A stretch of DNA of 64,000 bases from Pseudogemmobacter hezensis (lineage in GTDB: Bacteria; Pseudomonadota; Alphaproteobacteria; Rhodobacterales; Rhodobacteraceae): contig NZ_JABJXT010000006.1 in NCBI RefSeq assembly GCF_013155295.1, forward strand, positions 124,001-188,000, in the 5' to 3' direction. A program made the position numbers and the translations under genes. The notes beneath the pieces are model-generated. The model ran no database searches. It was not told the origin of the DNA and was given only the letters and a program-made list of their open reading frames with translations. Positions within the stretch are counted from its first letter, which is position 1; the number at the start of each line of letters is the position of its first letter. Shown piece by piece: positions 6,073 through 35,336 of the stretch.

Positions 6073-6417
6073 TCAAACACTTGCAGCGCGCTTCTCACGC
6101 TGTTTGTGCCGGTTGTGGCAAGACTGGCAAAGCGGTTGCCAGTTGAAGCGATCCCAGAAGAGCGCAAGGTCGCCTCGATGCGTCCTGATATGATCGACCA
6201 CGCTCGCGGGCGCACCACAGCACGCACAGATCGGGTGGGCTGCGAGGAACTCGGCGCGCATTTTCGGCCATTCTGACGTATAATCGCGCGCGCGAACTGA
6301 AGGTCTCGTCGCGTCATGGCGGCGGTTCCTGGCGCGGGTGCTGGCGATCTGGCAGCTACAGCGCGCACCATGAGGCACAACGCGGCCACAGGTGCAGATA
6401 TGGGGCGGGCGCGGCAT
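6073..6417 (-). CDS. HNH endonuclease, phage type
   Basis: A 114-residue protein with an N-terminal Cys/His cluster (CTCGRVV, ARCSC) and an HNH core: CACCGAPASVVDHIRTHRGD followed by WQPLCQSCHNRHK. The CxxC pairs and the DH/NRH residues are those of the HNH zinc-stabilised nuclease fold. Such genes sit next to terminase genes in tailed phages and assist DNA packaging. Its ATG overlaps the upstream stop codon (TAATG), so it is translationally coupled to the preceding phage frame. It appears intact although the surrounding prophage is decayed. Confidence 0.72.
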   Translation of the reverse strand: MPRPPHICTCGRVVPHGARCSCQIASTRARNRRHDATRPSVRARDYTSEWPKMRAEFLAAHPICACCGAPASVVDHIRTHRGDLALFWDRFNWQPLCQSCHNRHKQREKRAASV

Positions 6418-23998: not shown

Positions 23999-24883
23999 AT
24001 GATGCGCGGATTATCAGGCCCACTGCTGGTGGCGCTGGCGGCTGTGGCGATTCCAACCCCTGGTCAGGCCGAGCTGGAGGATTTCACCTTTCGTCGGGTC
24101 AAAGTTGGCGATTCCGCGCCGGGCAAAAGAATCACGGTGCAGATCGATCCCGCCGAGCAGGCACGCCGCCTGGCTGCGACGGCCTGGAAGGATCCCGCGC
24201 TCAGACGTGATGAGGATCAGCCGCAATCCCCCGCCGGAACGGCTGAAGGTGCCGACGGGGCGGTGCCGGGGGCGGGGCCAAAATCGAACTATGCCTGGTA
24301 TTGGGAGATGGTGGCGCCGGATCGGGCCAGCTCGGCAGGGCAGTTTCCGAAAGCGATGGCGGCACTGACCCAGGGGCCTGGCGGGGCCTCGGTTGCGGCG
24401 CCCAGGATGCAGTCGATGCAGACCATGGCAGAGATCTATGGCCGCGATATTCTGACAGCAACTGTTGGGACCGATGTGTCGCCTGCGCTGGTGCTGGCGG
24501 TGATCGGGATCGAGAGCGCCGGGCGCAAAGAGGCGGTTTCTTCGGCGGGGGCGGTGGGGCTGATGCAGCTGATCCCCGCAACGGCTGAGCGCTTTGGCGT
24601 GACCGATTCCACCGACCCCGCGCAAAACATCAAAGGCGGCGTCGCCTATCTGGACTGGCTGCTCGATGAATTTGACAATGATCCGCTGATGGCGCTGGCG
24701 GCCTATAATGCCGGTGAGGGGGCGGTGAAGAAAAACGGCGGCGTGCCGCCCTATGCCGAGACCAGGGACTATGTGCCCAAGGTGCTTGCGGCCTGGCAGG
24801 TGGCGCAGGGGCTGTGCATGACCCCGCCCGAGCTGGTGACTGATCCCTGCGTTTTCAGGATTATGGCTTCGACCGGGGGCTGA
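23999..24883 (+). CDS. Lytic transglycosylase (SLT domain)
   Basis: A 294-residue periplasmic murein-cleaving enzyme. The signal peptide is LLVALAAVAIPTPGQA. A Pro/Gly-rich linker covers about 65-95, and the SLT domain about 155-265. The catalytic glutamate lies in VIGIESAGRKE near 171, followed by AGAVGLMQLIPATAERFG and the C-terminal MALAAYNAGEGAVKK, all standard goose-lysozyme-fold motifs. It is divergent from the Tad locus and may open the wall for the pilus; that link rests on place only. Two ATGs in a row (23999, 24002) make the exact start uncertain by one codon. Confidence 0.88.
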   Translation: MMRGLSGPLLVALAAVAIPTPGQAELEDFTFRRVKVGDSAPGKRITVQIDPAEQARRLAATAWKDPALRRDEDQPQSPAGTAEGADGAVPGAGPKSNYAWYWEMVAPDRASSAGQFPKAMAALTQGPGGASVAAPRMQSMQTMAEIYGRDILTATVGTDVSPALVLAVIGIESAGRKEAVSSAGAVGLMQLIPATAERFGVTDSTDPAQNIKGGVAYLDWLLDEFDNDPLMALAAYNAGEGAVKKNGGVPPYAETRDYVPKVLAAWQVAQGLCMTPPELVTDPCVFRIMASTGG

Positions 24884-25037: not shown

Positions 25038-25328
25038 TCAGCTGGTGAACTGGTCGGCCCATTCGGGATGGCGGCGGCGCATGGCATCGACAAAGGTGCA
25101 AAGCGGCACGATGCGATAGCCGTTTTCGCGGGCATCTTTAACCAGCGCTTCGACCAGGGCCTTGCCGGCACCTGTTCCGTGGAAACTGTCGGGGACGCCG
25201 GTATGGTCGGCTGATACGACACCGGGGCTGCGCCGGGTGAAGGTCAGCTCGGCCTCGTCACCATCTTTGCAGATCACAAAGCGGCCCTGATCATTGCTGG
25301 TTTCATGGTGGATTTCGAAATCGGCCAT
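25038..25328 (-). CDS. Small GNAT-family N-acetyltransferase (YidJ/Gcn5-like minimal type)
   Basis: A 96-residue minimal acetyltransferase. It has an antiparallel start (GRFVICKDGDEAELTFTRR), then DHTGVPDSFHGTGAGKALVEALVKDARENG, which is the acetyl-CoA pyrophosphate-binding loop (HxGTGxGxxL), and a C-terminal PLCTFVDAMRRRHPEW. The length and the PLCxF ending match the short group of GNAT proteins of unknown substrate. It is a lone gene between the transglycosylase and tRNA-Leu. Confidence 0.82.
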   Translation of the reverse strand: MADFEIHHETSNDQGRFVICKDGDEAELTFTRRSPGVVSADHTGVPDSFHGTGAGKALVEALVKDARENGYRIVPLCTFVDAMRRRHPEWADQFTS

Positions 25329-25430: not shown

Positions 25431-25792
25431 GCGGACGTGGCGAAACTGGTAAACGCAGCAGACTTTGACGATTTGGAGTGCCCGTGGGGAAACCTGCGGT
25501 GCAGAACCGCTCAAATTCGGGGAAAGCTAAGGGAGGGCCTGAACGGGCGCTTCGATGCCAATCCCGAGCCAAGCCCCGGTCGGTGATCGCAGGATCCAGG
25601 CCAGGGAAGGTGTAGAGACTGGACGGGCGGTGCCTGTAGCCACGAAGGCCGGATCGGTGTTTCGCGGCCATGGCAAAGGGACAGTCCAGACCACGAACGC
25701 CCGGCATGTGCGGGGCGGCGGCGAAAGTCGAAGTGGGATGAAAATCTGCCTTCCGAAAGGAATTACGGGTTCGATCCCCGTCGTCCGCACCA
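25431..25792 (+). tRNA. tRNA-Leu (anticodon UAA) interrupted by a group I intron
   Basis: Exon 1 is 25431-25465 and exon 2 is 25741-25792. Joined, they give an 87-nt tRNA: acceptor GCGGACG/CGTCCGC, D-stem GCG/CGC, anticodon stem GCAGA (25458-25462)/TCTGC (25745-25749), loop CTT+AAAA with anticodon TAA, long variable arm TTCC-GAAA-GGAA as in tRNA-Leu, T-arm ACGGG/CCCGT, discriminator A and encoded CCA. Every stem is fully paired. The break falls between U34 and A35. Without splicing, the anticodon loop could not form. Confidence 0.95.
25466..25740 (+). ncRNA. Self-splicing group I intron (tRNA-Leu type, probably subgroup IC3)
   Basis: A 275-nt intron with the conserved core elements in order. 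P is AATTCGGGGAAAGCTAAG from 25515 and Q is AATCCCGAGCCAAGCC from 25560; TCGGG at 25517-25521 pairs with CCCGA at 25563-25567 as P4. R is GGTGTAGAGACTGGACGG from 25609 and S is AAGGGACAGTCC ending 25687; GACT at 25617-25620 pairs with AGTC at 25683-25686 within P7. It ends in G at 25740, as group I introns do. The 5' exon end ACTT can pair with GAGT at 25475-25478 to give P1 with the U.G pair at the splice site. It has no reading frame long enough for a homing endonuclease. Core and site resemble the cyanobacterial tRNA-Leu(UAA) intron. Confidence 0.92.
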
Positions 25793-25825
25793 ACTACCAT
25801 TGATTTTATTGAGTTATTGGCGATT

Positions 25826-26026
25826 TCAATCTCTGGTCCACCAGTTAGCCCGCCACAGAGTCGGCGAATTTTTCAGGTCGGCGCATTTCCAGAGCCGAGA
25901 ACCGTCGATCATGACGCCCTCATTCAGGCGGCCCGCCGCAATCCATTTGCGAAATGTCGGGCGGCTGATACCCATGATTGCCGCGGCAACCTTTTCACGG
26001 ATAAGCAGTGGCTGAATGTCCATCAT
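25826..26026 (-). CDS. Small helix-turn-helix protein, AlpA/excisionase type
   Basis: A 66-residue protein with one HTH: LIREKVAAAIMGISRPTFRKWIAAGRL, then a basic segment that ends in WRANWWTRD. This is the MerR-like fold of AlpA/Xis proteins, which regulate or assist excision of integrated elements. Its ATG overlaps the stop of the next upstream gene (ATGA), so the two are co-translated. It lies 34 bases from the tRNA-Leu gene, a usual place for such genes in elements that target tRNAs. No integrase is seen nearby. Confidence 0.68.
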   Translation of the reverse strand: MMDIQPLLIREKVAAAIMGISRPTFRKWIAAGRLNEGVMIDGSRLWKCADLKNSPTLWRANWWTRD

Positions 26027-26301
26027 CCGCCCCCTTTCTCTTGCGCGGCGGCGGGGCGGAAACGGCGCCAGGCCAAGACGGGCAGCGGGTTTACCTCGCG
26101 ATGTTCCTCGACCAGTTCGATGACCCGGCCAATTCCGCCACGGGCGTTCGCGCCTTCTTCCGCGCTGCCGCGATCCATCACGAGGTTGCGGGCAAGCAGA
26201 AGCTCCAGCGCCCTGATGCGGTCGGCTGCCTCAAGGCTATGCGCCTGGCAAGGCGGCTGCGTCACGAACCTCGCCACCAGCGTATCGGTGTCAGTGATCA
26301 T
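26023..26301 (-). CDS. Uncharacterised small protein of the element next to tRNA-Leu
   Basis: A 92-residue protein of unrecognised family. The middle is helical and charged (LEAADRIRALELLLARNLVMD and GRVIELVEEHREV). It overlaps the HTH gene by four bases, which supports it as a real gene. Probably phage or island cargo. Confidence 0.5.
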   Translation of the reverse strand: MITDTDTLVARFVTQPPCQAHSLEAADRIRALELLLARNLVMDRGSAEEGANARGGIGRVIELVEEHREVNPLPVLAWRRFRPAAAQEKGGG

Positions 26302-26343
26302 GGGCGGCCTCCGTACGTGCGGAGGGCGTAACTGCCGCTGGTT

Positions 26344-26457
26344 TCAGGCGATGCTGATGAGCAAAAGCAGCACGACAATGTCTGTCGCCATAGTGGCTGT
26401 CACCTGGTCGCGCGAGATGAGGCCGCGGTACCAAAGGAAAAAGGCTGTGGGAAACAC
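26344..26457 (-). CDS. Possible 37-residue membrane peptide
   Basis: A GTG with GGAGA seven to eight bases upstream opens a short frame: VFPTAFFLWYRGLISRDQVTA, then a hydrophobic run IVVLLLLISIA at the end. It is a single-pass peptide by appearance, of the size of small phage membrane proteins. Short length keeps the confidence low. Confidence 0.3.
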   Translation of the reverse strand: MFPTAFFLWYRGLISRDQVTATMATDIVVLLLLISIA

Positions 26458-26546
26458 GGTCACTCTCCATAAATCTCATCAGCAACGTGAGGTTGTGTGA
26501 TTGGTTCCCTGAGCGTTGATTATTTCGGGCGGGGGCCGCCCCTCCA

Positions 26547-26885
26547 TCACGCGCGGTCATTGGGGGCCTCCGGGGTGTGCTTGATTGCGGGTGGCGGCTC
26601 GTCGCGCTGCCCGAACAAGCAGCAGGCGAGTGCGTTGCAGGTGAAGCGCCGGTTTGCTTTCCGGTGCTTGAGCTTGTGGCATCCGCCCTTCTTGAGCCGC
26701 CCCTGCGGCGGCCTTGTTGCTCTGCGCATAGTGCCCCGGGGGGGCGTTGCGATGCGGTCTTTCACCTTCCCGATTTCCCAGAAGGCGCATTCGCGGCAGG
26801 TTTTGCCTTCCGGGCCGGTGCCCGCGATATGGGCTTGGCCAAGGAAGGTGTTGCGAATGGCTGCCTTATGGGGAAGGGCCTTCAT
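26547..26885 (-). CDS. Cys-rich phage-type protein (probable zinc ribbon)
   Basis: A 112-residue protein starting MKALPHKAAIRNTFLGQAHIAG. It contains GKTCRECAFWEIG (CxxC) and later GGCHKLKHRK and FTCNALACCLFGQ, giving a four-Cys-pair pattern of a small zinc-binding fold. Proteins with 'GKTC.DCA.W' starts are common in alphaproteobacterial prophages; their role is unknown. The start at 26885 is chosen for GGAG five bases upstream; longer frames to 26930 lack a site. Confidence 0.5.
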   Translation of the reverse strand: MKALPHKAAIRNTFLGQAHIAGTGPEGKTCRECAFWEIGKVKDRIATPPRGTMRRATRPPQGRLKKGGCHKLKHRKANRRFTCNALACCLFGQRDEPPPAIKHTPEAPNDRA

Positions 26886-26930
26886 CCTTGCTCCGAACTG
26901 GAGGTGGTCGCTCAACATCCCAGGCTTCAT

Positions 26931-27321
26931 TGAGCCCGATCAGGGGCTTTGGGTTTCCTGATCCGATCTGCTGAACCCGATTGAGGATCTGCTGGTCTGG
27001 CTCTGGGTCACGATGCGCCAGATGCGCGGGGAAGAGCCGGATTTCATGTGGTCAGTTGGGGCGGAGATCCAGGCCAGCCCCAGGGCAAGGGCAGGCCATG
27101 ACCCAACGCACAAACGCGCCTGCTGACGATGAAACAGCGGCGCGTCTGGCTGACACTCGTAAACAATCACATCGACGCCTGGTCATGAGGGCTTTGACCA
27201 TCGCGCCGGGCACTCACAAAAACCGCCCCCGTCACTCGCACACCGGGGAAACGCAGAAAACACGGATCGGTTTCCAGGCATCTTTGCCTATGCCGCAGGA
27301 AAAAACGGAACGAGGGAAGGA
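26931..27321. other. Gene-poor stretch of the island remnant
   Basis: Frames here are short and lack start signals. One plus-strand stretch (about 26958-27125, containing PIEDLLVWLWVTMRQMRGEEPDF) has protein-like composition but no start codon, so it may be a fragment. Nothing else was recognised. Confidence 0.35.
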
Positions 27322-27522
27322 ATGACACCACTCGCAATCATCGGCGGCGCTGTCGTCGCAATCACCATCATCGTCGGAGCGGTCCAGATCGCCCGATCAT
27401 TCACGAAACCCACCAGGAAAGGAAATCACCGTAGGAAAAACGGAATTCACCATCGGCGGCGTGGTCAGTGCCGCAATCGTCGCAATCATCAGCCTTTTCG
27501 GCAGCTTCTATACCGTCGATGA
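27322..27522 (+). CDS. Short frame with one membrane helix, possibly overlapping a decayed gene
   Basis: The ATG has AGGGAAGGA directly upstream and is followed by TPLAIIGGAVVAITIIVGAVQIARS, a good membrane helix. After about 30 residues the frame turns Arg/His-rich because it runs out of frame through the SPFH pseudogene. The original gene may have ended near residue 30, or this is the corrupted start of the next gene. Confidence 0.3.
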   Translation: MTPLAIIGGAVVAITIIVGAVQIARSFTKPTRKGNHRRKNGIHHRRRGQCRNRRNHQPFRQLLYRR

Positions 27523-27774
27523 GGGCGAGCGCGGCGTGATCGTGTCTTTCGGGACCGTGCAGGGCACAGCGGATCCTGGCATTCATTTCAAGATGCCGAT
27601 CATCACCTCGGTCCATACGGTGCCGCTACGGTGCCGCTGCGCAATCAGGTCACCAGCTACGAAAGCCGTGAGGCCTATACGACAGACCAGCAGATCGTCA
27701 CCATTGAGGCCCCTGCACATCACCTGCCAGATCCCCGCGGACCGCGTCGAAGAGGTATACCGCGAATAAGCTGA
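27434..27774 (+). pseudogene. SPFH/prohibitin (Band 7) family gene, frameshifted and truncated
   Basis: The frame EFTIGGVVSAAIVAIISLFGSFYTVDEGERGVIVSFGTVQGTADPGIHFKMPII is the membrane helix plus start of a Band 7 domain, as in small phage-borne prohibitin-like proteins. A perfect 11-bp tandem duplication (TACGGTGCCGC, 27616-27637) then shifts the frame. Removing one copy restores TVPLRNQVTSYESREAYTTDQQIVTI. A second shift follows before IPADRVEEVYRE, and a stop cuts off the rest of the domain. No start codon lies at the expected place (ATC at 27424 where ATG might have been). Confidence 0.7.
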
Positions 27775-31327: not shown

Positions 31328-31789
31328 CTAAAGCGCCTCTTTCACCGCCTCCATCGCGACATAGGTCGAGGTCTGCGCCACATGGGGCAGGGCAGAGATG
31401 CGCTCGGCCAGCACGCGGCGATAGTCGGAAATATCGGTGGTGCGCACCTTCAGCAGATAGTCGAAACGGCTGGCGATCATATGGCATTGCTCGACCTCGG
31501 GCACGGTCAGCACGGCGCGGTTGAAGGCCTGCAGCGCCGCCTCGCGGGTGTCATCCAGCCGCACCTCGACAAAGGCCACATGCGACAGCCCCATTTTCAC
31601 CGGATCAAGGATCGCGCGATAGCCCGCGATCACCCCCGCCTCTTCCAGCCGCTTCATCCGCGCCTGGACGGGACTTTTTGACAGGCCGACACAGCGGGCC
31701 AGCTCGACCGCGGCAATGCGGCCCTCGGTGGCCAGGATCCGCAGAATCGCATGATCGAAACGGTCCAGGTCCGGCAATGATTGTGGCAT
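31328..31789 (-). CDS. putR: Lrp/AsnC-family regulator PutR
   Basis: A 153-residue Lrp-type regulator. The N-terminal HTH is FDHAILRILATEGRIAAVELARCVGLSKSPVQARMKRLEEAG. The C-terminal RAM ligand-binding domain contains VEVRLDDTREAALQAFNRAV and EVEQCHMIASRFDYLLKVRT. It is divergent from putA across 103 bases. In alphaproteobacteria such Lrp-type PutR proteins activate putA in the presence of proline; here that is inferred from orientation and family. Confidence 0.88.
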   Translation of the reverse strand: MPQSLPDLDRFDHAILRILATEGRIAAVELARCVGLSKSPVQARMKRLEEAGVIAGYRAILDPVKMGLSHVAFVEVRLDDTREAALQAFNRAVLTVPEVEQCHMIASRFDYLLKVRTTDISDYRRVLAERISALPHVAQTSTYVAMEAVKEAL

Positions 31790-31892: not shown

Positions 31893-34800
31893 ATGAAAAA
31901 TCCGTCTGATCTGGTCCGTGATGCTTCGCTTGCACCTGAGGGTGAGTTGGTCAGGGCGCTGATCGCCCAAAGCGGGTTGGATCAGACCGCCCGCGACCGG
32001 ATCGCCGCCGCCGGGGCCGATCTGGTGCGGCGCATCCGCTCGGGCGCAAAGCCCGGCCTGATGGAGGTTTTCCTCGCCGAATACGGTCTGTCGACCGATG
32101 AGGGCATCGCGCTGATGTGTCTGGCCGAGGCGCTTTTGCGGGTGCCGGATGCGCCGACGATGGATGCGCTGATCGAGGATAAGATCGCCCCCTCTGACTG
32201 GGGCAAACATCTGGGGCACTCGGCCTCAAGCCTGGTGAACGCCTCGACCTGGGCCCTGATGCTGACGGGCAAGGTGCTGGACGAGCGCGGGCCCGGTATT
32301 GCAGGCAGCCTGCGCGGTGCGATCCGGCGGCTGGGCGAGCCGGTGATCCGAAGCGCGACGACGCGGGCGATGAAAGAGATGGGCCGCCAGTTCGTTCTGG
32401 GTGAAACCATTGAAAAGGCGATGAAACGCGCCGAAGAGCTTGAGGCCAAAGGCTATACCTATTCCTATGATATGCTGGGCGAGGGGGCCCGCACTGAGGC
32501 CGACGCCCGCAGCTATCACCTGGCCTATACCCGCGCGATCACCGCGATCGCCAAAGCCGCGAAATCGCGCGATGTCGGCACCAATCCCGGCGTTTCCGTT
32601 AAGCTTTCCGCCATACATCCGCGCTATGAAGTGGCCCATGAAGCGCGCGTGATGGAGGAACTGGTGCCCCGGCTGCGGGCACTGTCGGGGCTGGCAAAGG
32701 CGGCCGGGATCGGCCTGAATGTTGATGCGGAAGAGGCGGATCGGCTGGATCTGTCGCTGAAGGTGATTGCGGCCACGCTGGAAGATCCCTCGCTGGCGGG
32801 CTGGGATGGTTTCGGTGTGGTGGTCCAGGCCTACGGGCGGCGCTGCGGGGCGGCGCTGGATGTGCTTTATGACCTGGCGACCCGGCTGAACCGCCGGATC
32901 ATGGTGCGCCTCGTGAAGGGGGCCTATTGGGATTATGAGATCAAGCGCGCCCAGGTGCTGGGGCTTGAAAGCTTCCCGGTTTTCACCCGCAAACAGGCAA
33001 CCGATGTCTCTTATATCGCCAATGCGCAAAAGCTGCTGGCGATGACCGACCGCATTTACCCGCAGTTCGCGGGCCATAATGCGCATACGGTGGCGGCGGT
33101 GCTGGATATGGCCGAACAGGCTGGCATTCGCCCCGATCAATATGAGTTCCAGCGCCTGCATGGCATGGGCGAGCGTCTGCATGACATTGTTCATACAGAT
33201 AAAAACACCCGCTGCCGGATCTATGCGCCTGTCGGGGCGCATCGGGATCTGCTGGCCTATCTGGTGCGCCGCTTGCTGGAAAACGGCGCGAATTCGTCCT
33301 TCGTGAACCAGATCGTCAATGAAGAGGTCTCGCCTGAAGAGGTCGCGTCCTGCCCGCTGACCTATATGGAGCGAGTCTCGCCGCTGGAAAATCCCTCGGT
33401 GCCGCCGGGGCCGCAGATCTTCCCGGGTCGTGTCAATTCGGCGGGTTTCGACCTGACCTCGCATGCGGATCTCGATCGGATCAATGCCGCCATGGCGCCC
33501 TTTATGACGCAGCGTTTCAGCGTCACGCCCAGCCTTGCCGGGCCGTTTACGGGCGGTCCGCGCCAGGATGTGATCAATCCGGCAACCGGCGAAAGCGTCG
33601 GTCAGGTGACGACCGCCAGCGCCGCAGATGTCGACACCGCGCTCAGCCTGGCCACGCCATGGGCGGCGAGCGCCAGCATCCGGGCTGCGACCCTGCGCCG
33701 CGTCGCCGACGCCTATGAGGCGAATTTCGGCCAGATCTTTGCGATCCTGATCCGTGAGGCCGGGAAGAACCTGCCCGACGCCGTCGCCGAGCTGCGCGAA
33801 GCTGTTGATTTCCTGCGCTATTACGCCAATGAGGCCGAGGGGCTGACCGCGCCCGCCCGTGGCCGCTTTACCTGTATCAGCCCGTGGAATTTCCCGCTGG
33901 CGATCTTCTCTGGCCAGATTGCGGCCGCGCTGGCGGCTGGCAATGCCGTGCTGGCCAAACCGGCCGAGCAGACGCCGATGATCGCCGATCTTGCGGTCGC
34001 TCTGATGCACCAGGCGGGGGTGCCGCTGACGGCGCTGCAGCTTTTGCCGGGCGAGGGCGATATCGGGGCGGCTCTGACCTCAGACCCGCGTGTCGATGGG
34101 GTGGCCTTCACCGGCTCGACCGAGGTTGCGCTGATCATCCGCCGCGCTATGGCGGAAAACCTGGCCCCCGGCGCGCCGCTGATCGCCGAGACGGGCGGCA
34201 TGAACGCGATGGTTGTCGATTCGACCGCGCTGCCCGAACAGGCGGTGCGCGATATCGTCGCCTCGTCCTTCCAGTCGGCGGGGCAGCGCTGCTCGGCCCT
34301 GCGCTGCCTTTACGTGCAGGAGGATATCGCGCCCGGCATCATCGAGATGCTGGAAGGCGCGATGGATGAGCTGGCGATCGGCGATCCGGCATTGCTGCGC
34401 ACCGATGTTGGCCCGGTGATCGACGCCGAGGCCCTGGCCACCATCAACGCGCATATTGCGAAAGCCCGCACCGAGGGGCGGCTGCTGAAAGAGCGGGCGG
34501 TGCCCGAGATCGGCACTTTCGCGCCCCCCGCCGTGATCCGCGTTGACGGTATCGCCGCGATGGAGCGTGAGATTTTCGGCCCCGTCCTGCATGTGGTGAC
34601 ATTTAAATCCGGCGAGATTGACATCGTTATCAATCAGATAAACCAAACCGGCTATGGGCTGACCTTCGGCCTGCACACCCGGATCGATGACCGCGTGCAG
34701 CACTTTGTCGAGCGTGTTCATGCGGGCAATATCTATGTGAACCGCAATCAGATCGGCGCGGTGGTCGGCAGCCAGCCCTTCGGCGGCGAGGGGCTTTCGG

Positions 34801-35336
34801 GCACCGGGCCAAAAGCGGGCGGGCCGCAGTATCTGCCGCGCTTCACCCGGCAGGCGGCCCAGGTCTCAGGCCAGCCCGGCAACGCCATCGCGGATGAGGC
34901 GGCGGTGGCGGCGGCCCTGGCCTCTGCCACGCTGCCCGCCGCGCCCGAGCCGCGCGAGCTGCCAGGCCCCACCGGCGAATCGAACCGCCTGGGCCAGTTC
35001 CCACGCGAGCCGCTTTTGTGCCTCGGCCCGGGGGCTGCGGCGCTGGCGGCCCAGGTCAATGCGGTGCGCGCGCTTGGCGGTGCGGCGGTTGAGGCCGATG
35101 GCCTTACCCCCGAGGCGCTGGTGCGGCTGCAGGGCTTTGGCGGTGTGCTTTACTGGGGCGACGAGCCCGGCGCCCGTGCCCTGACCCGCGCTTTGGCCAG
35201 CCGCAAGGGGCCGATCCTGCCGCTGATCACCGGCAGCCCCGACCAGGCGCATATCATGCATGAGCGCCATGTCTGCATCGACACCACGGCCTCTGGCGGC
35301 AATGCCAGGCTGCTGGCCGAGGTTGCGGATGCCTGA
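31893..35336 (+). CDS. putA: Bifunctional proline dehydrogenase / glutamate-semialdehyde dehydrogenase PutA
   Basis: Oxidises proline to glutamate in two steps with FAD and NAD+. The 1147-residue protein has a helical N-terminal region, then a proline dehydrogenase barrel at about 180-460 (GVSVKLSAIHPRYE, VRLVKGAYWDYEIKRAQ, YEFQRLHGMGERL). The aldehyde dehydrogenase domain spans about 560-1000: FTGSTEVALIIRR, the ETGG motif in LIAETGGMNAMVVDS, and the catalytic Cys near 800 in SAGQRCSALR. A C-terminal domain of about 100 residues remains. There is no ribbon-helix-helix DNA-binding domain, so it is not self-regulating, which agrees with PutR next door. CAGGAGG precedes the ATG. Confidence 0.96.
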   Translation: MKNPSDLVRDASLAPEGELVRALIAQSGLDQTARDRIAAAGADLVRRIRSGAKPGLMEVFLAEYGLSTDEGIALMCLAEALLRVPDAPTMDALIEDKIAPSDWGKHLGHSASSLVNASTWALMLTGKVLDERGPGIAGSLRGAIRRLGEPVIRSATTRAMKEMGRQFVLGETIEKAMKRAEELEAKGYTYSYDMLGEGARTEADARSYHLAYTRAITAIAKAAKSRDVGTNPGVSVKLSAIHPRYEVAHEARVMEELVPRLRALSGLAKAAGIGLNVDAEEADRLDLSLKVIAATLEDPSLAGWDGFGVVVQAYGRRCGAALDVLYDLATRLNRRIMVRLVKGAYWDYEIKRAQVLGLESFPVFTRKQATDVSYIANAQKLLAMTDRIYPQFAGHNAHTVAAVLDMAEQAGIRPDQYEFQRLHGMGERLHDIVHTDKNTRCRIYAPVGAHRDLLAYLVRRLLENGANSSFVNQIVNEEVSPEEVASCPLTYMERVSPLENPSVPPGPQIFPGRVNSAGFDLTSHADLDRINAAMAPFMTQRFSVTPSLAGPFTGGPRQDVINPATGESVGQVTTASAADVDTALSLATPWAASASIRAATLRRVADAYEANFGQIFAILIREAGKNLPDAVAELREAVDFLRYYANEAEGLTAPARGRFTCISPWNFPLAIFSGQIAAALAAGNAVLAKPAEQTPMIADLAVALMHQAGVPLTALQLLPGEGDIGAALTSDPRVDGVAFTGSTEVALIIRRAMAENLAPGAPLIAETGGMNAMVVDSTALPEQAVRDIVASSFQSAGQRCSALRCLYVQEDIAPGIIEMLEGAMDELAIGDPALLRTDVGPVIDAEALATINAHIAKARTEGRLLKERAVPEIGTFAPPAVIRVDGIAAMEREIFGPVLHVVTFKSGEIDIVINQINQTGYGLTFGLHTRIDDRVQHFVERVHAGNIYVNRNQIGAVVGSQPFGGEGLSGTGPKAGGPQYLPRFTRQAAQVSGQPGNAIADEAAVAAALASATLPAAPEPRELPGPTGESNRLGQFPREPLLCLGPGAAALAAQVNAVRALGGAAVEADGLTPEALVRLQGFGGVLYWGDEPGARALTRALASRKGPILPLITGSPDQAHIMHERHVCIDTTASGGNARLLAEVADA

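Follow-up and report, generated by a model that had tools for sequence, protein, structure and literature searches.

A group I intron in the tRNA-Leu(UAA) gene of Pseudogemmobacter hezensis and its probable arrival by whole-gene replacement

An interrupted tRNA-Leu(UAA) gene

The window examined in this study, a 64,000-nucleotide stretch of contig NZ_JABJXT010000006.1 of the alphaproteobacterium Pseudogemmobacter hezensis, contains an interrupted tRNA-Leu(UAA) gene whose group I intron is expected from its family to be self-splicing, and which has probably replaced, exons and intron together, a different gene at the same locus (probability about 0.85, from comparison of sequences). This kind of ribozyme is already known, and the surprise is the mobility of the intron-bearing gene: the evidence for gene replacement is good, and a relative carried on plasmids is striking. 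Host tRNA and intron together form a marker that can be traced across species and that here points to in-place replacement of a tRNA gene.

Removal of positions 25466-25740 leaves an 87-nt tRNA-Leu with the anticodon UAA, an acceptor stem GCGGACG...CGUCCGC, A73, CCA, a long variable arm and the anticodon loop CUUAAAA. The 5' exon (25431-25465, + strand, 35 nt; placed by sequence and the intron mode of ARAGORN) ends in U34, and the 3' exon (25741-25792, +, 52 nt; sequence and ARAGORN) begins with A35 and ends in an encoded CCA. The 275-nt intron (25466-25740, +), delimited by sequence, the Rfam model RF00028, a covariance model (R1) and covariation, therefore lies between U34 and A35, as in the 14 aligned genes, and these relatives fix the splice register. 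Its final base is G25740; since the boundaries were chosen to give a terminal G, this serves as a consistency check.

Neither default ARAGORN nor Rfam at the gathering score reports anything at 25431-25792. RF00028 does match the intron (29.8 bits, E 8.2e-6), though below the curated gathering cut-off of 50 bits, and ARAGORN with introns allowed returns the same outer ends and the 275-nt length, with the cut one base early and the call Phe(GAA); placed so that the intron closes with G and the 5' exon with U, the cut makes the gene Leu(UAA), not Phe(GAA). The initial annotation, made from the letters alone, had proposed a group I intron at U34/A35 of an alphaproteobacterial tRNA-Leu(UAA), with P4 and P7 pairings and a terminal G, and had expected standard tRNA annotation to miss it. 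The tRNA, the RF00028 match, the covariation described below and the silence of the two default searches all agree with it, and P3 and P8 can be added to the pairings. Gene finders blind to tRNA introns drop such genes, so that the genomes look devoid of the tRNA needed for UUA codons.

According to the ORF list, no frame of at least 80 aa lies wholly within the 275-nt intron, and a homing endonuclease, which would mark a mobile intron, was not recognised there. A 138-aa frame that crosses the tRNA gene on the opposite strand has no Pfam match. The roughly 2 kb between the tRNA and the DUF1275 gene (25793-27770) hold no clear genes; by eye, the remnant of an excisionase-like HTH can be made out, together with a band-7 ORF that is truncated (a single ORF was run against Pfam, with no match), and the stretch has no DNA match in the flanks of six intron-bearing sister species.

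Conservation of the intron core

Relatives were drawn from 198 genomes of the same family, 41 of which gave matches; 30 loci were kept, and 20 of these carry a recognisable intron (14 in Leu(UAA), three in Arg(CCU), two in Arg(UCU) and one in Thr(GGU), the window included). Across 18 aligned related cores (P3-P8 with P7), standard pairs make up 99.1% of 557 pair cells. Two-sided changes occur in 13 of the 31 pairs, a number as high being reached in none of 500 shuffles, which ignore kinship, and each helix is 92-100% paired, compared with only 27-47% in slid registers. The paired strands, all on the + strand, were placed by comparative alignment at 25507-25512 and 25625-25630 (P3), 25517-25521 and 25563-25567 (P4), 25526-25527 and 25557-25558 (P5, where G-C becomes C-G in 6 of the 18 cores), 25568-25570 and 25609-25611 (P6), 25617-25621 and 25682-25686 (P7, whose last pair is A-U in 11 and G-C in 7 of the 18), and 25631-25634 and 25672-25675 (P8). 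Covariation was found in the core helices by which a group I intron is recognised, namely P3, P4, P6, P7 and P8. Single-sequence folding, in a model without pseudoknots, gave an MFE z-score of -1.73, with 10 of 200 shuffles as low; as this value is not remarkable, it was dropped as evidence.

Introns of subgroup IC3 are marked by GNRA loops in L2 and L9 and by a subgroup-specific core sequence. Among the 14 aligned genes, GAAA in the P9 region is invariant (14 of 14), as is G.AA in P2, and the window intron may belong to this subgroup. The R1 model, built from the aligned family introns, finds one intron in the P. hezensis genome and gives 101 matches over 100 named sources (E<1e-8), a set that was preselected by a 20-base core motif and of which at least three members (L112, L126, L186) come from genomes that had also contributed rows to the model.

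Judged by comparison with its relatives, the intron transcript would fold into a P3-P9 core, with P1 aligning U34 with G25476 of the guide. If catalysis proceeds as in the rest of the family, exogenous guanosine bound in P7 would cut at the 5' splice site, and exchange at the terminal G would join the exons into a functional tRNA-Leu(UAA). The ribozyme is a small one, lacking a recognised homing endonuclease.

The guide sequence and the host tRNA

The putative internal guide sequence, GAGU at 25476-25479 (+), was located by eye; it would form P1 with ACUU at the end of the 5' exon (25462-25465), and G25476 stands opposite U25465, the guide G facing the 5' exon U. A neighbouring UUU (25472-25474, +) is proposed as the P10 partner of the AAA that opens the 3' exon (25741-25743).

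Guides were compared in 133 introns with host and boundaries set, five fMet introns with unsure boundaries being left out. A first test, satisfied by an exact four-letter match at any point within the first 26-30 nt, was not strict enough and partly failed: the motif of the host itself turned up in 66 of 88 Leu introns, 8 of 24 Arg(CCU) introns and none of the 26 introns with other hosts, and the motif predicted for Arg(CCU) also in 58 of the 88 Leu introns, probably from the GGGGAAA of P2. The test that replaced it, chosen after the first had been seen, uses three letters and only the stretch before P2. By this measure, GAG is present in 81 of the 88 Leu(UAA) introns and in none of the 24 Arg(CCU) introns, all of which carry GGG. 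GUG was found in all eight Ile(CAU) introns and GCC in four of five Thr(GGU) introns, and GAG recurs in Arg(UCU) (3/3), Thr(UGU) (2/3) and Lys(UUU) (2/2). Six of the seven Leu exceptions carry GGG, still pairing through U-G, and the boundary of the seventh (L146) is probably misplaced. GUG also occurs in 72 of the 88 Leu introns and GCC in seven of the eight Ile introns, owing to the letters that follow the guide, so the contrast between GAG and GGG is the telling one. For the most part, then, the guide sequence tracks the host tRNA, as would be required of working ribozymes.

Some of these hosts are uncommon. Introns were seen in Lys(UUU) of Actinomycetota (L152, L153), Thr(UGU) of Betaproteobacteria (L182, L187), Thr(GGU) of Alphaproteobacteria (L014, L114, L183, L214) and Arg(UCU) (L013, L015, L230). 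They lie after a U of the anticodon loop, as the scan required, and the guide matches in most. None of the four tRNAs is among the group I intron hosts named in the relevant passages of the reviews.

The same locus with a different gene

The surroundings of the gene are conserved in order. Upstream lie an SLT transglycosylase (23999-24883, +) and a GNAT acetyltransferase (Acetyltransf_CG; 25038-25328, -), both assigned by family match, and downstream a gene at 31328-31789 (-) that we take from its sequence to be an Lrp-like regulator, followed by a presumably PutA-like gene at 31893-35336. The order SLT-GNAT-tRNA-Leu(intron) is shared by the window and the intron-bearing genomes G199, G206 and G209, and G200 has SLT-tRNA-Leu(intron)-Lrp-PutA; in the window, two extra genes (DUF1275 and a deacetylase) stand ahead of Lrp-PutA. 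In the intronless G198, G202, G203 and G204, a tRNA-Leu(UAA) gene likewise follows SLT and GNAT, about 1.5 kb further down. The Lrp-like gene then follows in G202 and G204, and no Lrp-like match was found in G198 and G203 within about 2.7 kb beyond the tRNA. The intronless gene of G207 is close to a contig end, the tRNA and GNAT of G201 are on different contigs, and in G205 neither an intron-bearing nor an intronless form was found.

Over the 87 nt of its exons, the window gene is 67% identical to the intronless gene of the sister species G202. Identity is higher with an unclassified proteobacterial MAG (L220; 94%), with a genome of the Caulobacteraceae (89%) and with the intron-bearing genes of Enterovirga, Novosphingobium and AGun1 (84-86%). 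The same tendency is seen across the family: in 25 of its 28 intron-bearing genes, the exons resemble those of an intron-bearing gene from another order or an unclassified record more closely than those of any intronless family gene; the 28 intronless genes comprise 20 sampled from 296 pattern-positive genomes and eight chosen, and the two sets compared differ in size.

As the locus is the same and the gene is different, the simplest reading is import of tRNA and intron with loss of the old gene, and whole-gene replacement is most likely to have taken place in the window's genus. Intron and exons would have entered together, displacing an older, different tRNA-Leu at the same chromosomal locus. 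Their source may have been a pool of intron-bearing tRNA-Leu(UAA) genes common to alphaproteobacterial orders, one branch of which would ride enterobacterial plasmids, often adjoining aac(3)-II.

One intronless gene (G083, L027) belongs to the intron-bearing exon class, being 80% identical to the window gene and up to 93% identical to other intron-bearing genes. Its existence implies that exact intron loss or gain in place also happens or happened, or that there is an intronless source gene.

Distribution and phylogeny of the introns

A scan of 84,980 species genomes with the 20-base core pattern gave at least 118 stretches, which represent a sample; 117 cores from it were aligned, two short ones being dropped and one contig contributing two cores. 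The host is Leu(UAA) for at least 62 of the 117, distributed among the matches listed over Alphaproteobacteria (35), Cyanobacteriota (11), unclassified Pseudomonadota (4), Bacteroidota (4), Acidobacteriota (3), Betaproteobacteria (2), Gammaproteobacteria (2) and Vulcanimicrobiota (1). Many of the sources are metagenome bins, which may be contaminated, and others are named strains of Rhodovulum, Enterovirga, Bradyrhizobium, Reyranella, Sphingomonas, Sphingobium, Caulobacter sp. CCUG 60055, Rhizobium, Carnimonas, Falsigemmobacter and Phaeodactylibacter.

Hosts were assigned from a table of known anticodons, a general splice-site scan having let too much through. Of the 186 motif places scanned, 23 received no host, and one of these (L076) was set to Leu by hand. 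Hosts are unsure for L105 (Thr(GGU) or Leu(GAG)), L110, L133, L151, L157 (set to Ile(CAU) by hand), L171, L190 and L201, and L113b, the second core of one contig, was left out of the Leu count. The two cores of that MAG contig (L113:5593-5721 on the + strand and 6080-6216 on the - strand) lie about 360 bases apart on opposite strands, with one host tRNA assigned.

Core identity to the window intron reaches 0.92 within the genus and 0.87 for other Leu introns of the family; among the matches listed, it reaches 0.84 for Leu introns of other alphaproteobacterial orders and 0.79 for alphaproteobacterial Arg(CCU) introns. A first tree of 164 cores was unstable. The second, with 124 cores, from which 34 named rows (long branches and several rare or unassigned hosts) and the rows with unassigned hosts had been dropped, places the cyanobacterial introns in a clade of their own (99/97) and unites the window intron with those of six further species in its genus (100/95). 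A clade of all Leu introns, cyanobacterial ones included, was not recovered. Approximately unbiased (AU) tests on 143 columns rejected none of four groupings (p 0.27-0.72), and two constrained trees scored better than the free tree. The intron-core phylogeny put forward as a check in the initial annotation thus yields the cyanobacterial clade and the genus clade, with the deeper grouping not separated by its roughly 145 columns; since no grouping is rejected, it does not give the direction or number of transfers.

It is conceivable, if unlikely, that the window gene descends vertically from an early alphaproteobacterium or older ancestor with an intron-bearing tRNA-Leu(UAA), which most lineages lost or replaced. 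One insertion site is used in several phyla and in many alphaproteobacterial orders, the seven introns of the genus form one clade, most of them at the same locus, and the AU test does not reject a single clade of all Leu introns (p 0.34, 143 columns). Such descent accords poorly with the 67% exon identity to the sister species' gene at the same locus and with the 25 of 28 cases in which exons are nearer to other orders, and the identical exons of Enterovirga and enterobacterial plasmids represent real transfer elsewhere.

Less probable again is entry of the intron alone into a resident tRNA-Leu, by reverse splicing or homing, perhaps from an alphaproteobacterial Arg(CCU) intron. Leu and Arg(CCU) introns of Alphaproteobacteria intermingle in the unstable first tree of 164 cores, the identity between Arg(CCU) cores and the window core reaches 79%, two genomes (G337, G372) carry introns in both genes, and G083 is a candidate intronless allele of the same exon class. 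Against this, each class of intron is accompanied by its own exons, the guide changes from host to host, no endonuclease was recognised, and the mixing of hosts is not significant by the AU test.

The initial annotation had offered horizontal acquisition or an under-noted vertical lineage as alternatives. Our comparisons suggest some of both: an alphaproteobacterial intron lineage as the vertical part, and passage between species with apparent whole-gene replacement, as indicated by exon identity and synteny, as the horizontal part, with a recent cyanobacterial gift set aside on core identity.

Copy number in the genome and the family

Apart from the split gene, no tRNA-Leu(UAA) was detected in the draft. 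Of 40 tRNA matches in P. hezensis none is Leu(UAA), and the contiguous Leu(UAA) pattern is absent from the draft. A second intact copy, the finding that the initial annotation would have held against its own proposal, was therefore looked for and not encountered in this draft, which also lacks a few other tRNAs: tRNA-Tyr (by pattern as well), Ile(GAU) and Ala(UGC) were not found in it, despite a completeness rating of 100%. Some tRNA genes are thus missing from the assembly or escaped the search, and a second copy of Leu(UAA) may lie in a gap.

R1 introns are present in 41 of 394 sampled family genomes and in 7 of 13 genomes of the window's genus. The hosts in the 41 genomes are Leu(UAA) (27), Arg(CCU) (8), Arg(UCU) (3) and Thr(GGU) (2, one unsure), with one genome lacking an assigned host; G337 and G372 have introns in both Leu and Arg(CCU) genes. 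The contiguous pattern occurs in one of the 27 Leu-intron genomes (G401), compared with 295 of the 367 other family genomes, a lower bound because the pattern overlooks some intronless genes, such as those of sister species with the loop CUUAAAC; it occurs in 8 of the 14 genomes with introns in other or unassigned tRNAs.

These counts bear on the very unlikely case of a decayed, non-splicing relic, with the functional Leu(UAA) gene hidden in an assembly gap. The draft is GC-rich, with 64 contigs and other expected tRNAs absent, and the MFE z-score is weak. Nevertheless, the intron retains its conserved pairs, its guide and its terminal G, the exon stems are intact, and 26 of 27 family Leu-intron genomes have no contiguous copy, which chance gaps would not give. 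We rejected a decayed relic on account of the covarying core.

UUA accounts for one of 291 leucine codons in eight window genes. It is nearly unused, so slow splicing would be cheap.

The intronless genes of four genomes of the genus (G198, G203, G204 and G207; L256-L259) have the loop CUUAAAC, with C38, and A38 is present in the other genes listed in the exon comparison, apart from L022. The latter (L022:1448-1536, G175) is an ARAGORN tRNA with the anticodon UUA (a stop reader) and the loop CUUUAAA, in a genome without the contiguous Leu(UAA) pattern; it may be a Leu(UAA) tRNA whose loop is unusual, or else resemble a suppressor.

Relation to known tRNA introns

An alphaproteobacterial group I intron in tRNA-Arg(CCU), from Agrobacterium, was reportedly described by Reinhold-Hurek and Shub in 1992 (cited in PMC4033280). 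Introns of this kind resemble that of the window in the core (up to 79% identical) and occur in the same taxa, two family genomes holding both; they differ in being inserted after U36 of another tRNA and in their guide (GGG in 24 of 24, as against GAG).

The classical intron of cyanobacterial and plastid tRNA-Leu(UAA) (Kuhsel 1990 and Xu 1990, as cited in PMC3984707) shares with the window intron the tRNA, the U34/A35 site, the core, the guide logic and the terminal G. It differs in that its core is 61-67% identical to that of the window (11 introns, among the matches listed), in the alphaproteobacterial host and different exon class of the window gene, and in falling into a separate clade, although a common grouping is not rejected by the AU test. 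A recent transfer from cyanobacteria, for which tRNA, site and the AU test speak (p 0.60 for window plus cyanobacteria, the constrained tree being slightly better), was rejected and is the least probable origin of all, given a core identity of 0.61-0.67 as against up to 0.84 with other alphaproteobacterial orders among the matches listed, and the separate cyanobacterial clade.

The tRNA-Ile2 introns of Acidovorax and Burkholderia (described in a passage of PMC8450103) and of Azoarcus (cited in PMC4033280) are also small group I ribozymes in a tRNA anticodon loop. Unlike the window intron, they lie after U36 and have the guide GUG, and their median core identity to it is 61% (9 rows).

Where PMC4033280 treats the proteobacterial host range of such introns, it names a few alpha- and beta-proteobacteria, and the corresponding passages of this review and of PMC3984707 contain no description of the alphaproteobacterial Leu-intron lineage. 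No report of proteobacterial tRNA-Leu(UAA) introns was found in the literature searched, most subscription journals being outside its scope.

Relatives on plasmids and in Escherichia coli

With the window gene as query, 1,267 of 72,556 PLSDB records gave matches, 1,257 of them over at least 80% of the gene. Nearly all of the matches listed are 71% identical to the window gene. By genus, Escherichia (486), Klebsiella (357) and Salmonella (114) are represented, and 921 of the matching plasmids are typed conjugative. The plasmid gene itself, used as query, again found 1,257 records, and identity is 99% or more in 1,273 of its 1,280 matches. This plasmid tRNA-Leu(UAA) gene is intact and carries an intron, being made up of a 35-nt 5' exon, a 213-nt intron and a 51-nt 3' exon (R1, 156.7 bits).

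In pCTX-M3 (L405:4001-4299; NC_004464.2 61823-62121), this gene lies in an unannotated stretch between a small ORF and a tmrB-like ATPase that adjoins aac(3)-IId, with IS26 and intI1 close by, and L406 and L437 have the same order with the tRNA gene also unannotated. A resistance module aacC2-tmrB-orf192-orf228-orf1182-ISCfr1 is described in a passage of PMC7096625; in pCTX-M3, the interval from tmrB to the next small ORF (192 bases, taken as orf192) holds the intact relative, which differs from the window gene in being plasmid-borne, in Enterobacteriaceae and others, in its 213-nt intron and in its 71% identity. By word search, neither tRNA nor intron is named in the text of PMC7096625 or of another paper on the module. 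Literature containing both tmrB and intron concerned group II elements elsewhere, not a tRNA intron.

Among 5,426 complete E. coli genomes, 624 (about one in nine) match at least 80% of the plasmid gene and 635 have any match. The places comprise 589 on plasmids and 81 on chromosomes, and 656 of 658 records are at least 99% identical. No annotated feature underlies the match in the ten matches listed, and one RefSeq record has no RNA annotated there. Linkage was assessed in 60 records taken at even steps from 989 E. coli records that match a 1.8-kb tRNA-tmrB-aac(3) stretch; 30 hold the whole stretch and most of the others are without the tRNA, including rows with aac(3)-IIe, so that the tRNA accompanies many aac(3)-IId modules and not all aac(3)-II. 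The aac(3)-IIe modules match from query position 383-386, about 85 bases past the tRNA, and many aac(3)-IId modules include it; the two module forms have different left ends.

The plasmid gene has the same exons as Enterovirga aerilata, and when 50 upstream bases are included its identity to the gene of this species is 92%; to Bradyrhizobiaceae AGun1 it is 84% identical over 472 bases, including 167 upstream. When the plasmid segment was compared with 385 Alphaproteobacteria, 51 matched, 14 of them (P. hezensis included) over the whole tRNA gene. In these 385, no chromosome carries an intron tRNA with a tmrB-like gene, no match reaches into the tmrB-like gene, and a source of aac(3)-II was not found. 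The tRNA and intron point to an alphaproteobacterial origin for part of this widespread aac(3)-II plasmid segment.

Since the plasmid gene is only 71% identical to that of the window, it indicates that such genes can move, and does not thereby indicate that the window gene arrived by plasmid; judged from these sequences, plasmids are a possible vehicle for intron-bearing tRNA-Leu(UAA) genes. More tentatively, such genes may be a mobile class of their own, tRNA and ribozyme moving together on phages and on plasmids alongside resistance genes and replacing the resident tRNA-Leu gene at its locus, with one unit, probably of Hyphomicrobiales-like chromosomal origin, in E. coli that is perhaps a working UUA-reader; we consider this somewhat doubtful as a whole. 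In E. coli, the plasmid gene makes a convenient laboratory system in which the expected self-splicing of a tRNA gene can be put to the test.

Introns on viral contigs

The same core pattern found at least 120 stretches in IMG/VR (L285-L404), metagenomic contigs that may be misassigned. At least 60 of the 120 are at the Leu(UAA) site (including L292:7290-7680 and L299:6000-6380), 44 have no assigned host, and R1 gave 105 matches in the first 100 stretches. In published phage records, the window gene was matched only in part, and a passage of a 2014 review (PMC3984707) places all phage introns then known in protein genes. The exons of L292 match the annotated, intronless tRNA-Leu of cultured cyanophages such as S-TIM5, in two pieces spanning 88 bases. 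The intron-bearing tRNA of L292 sits among tail genes that we label T4-like.
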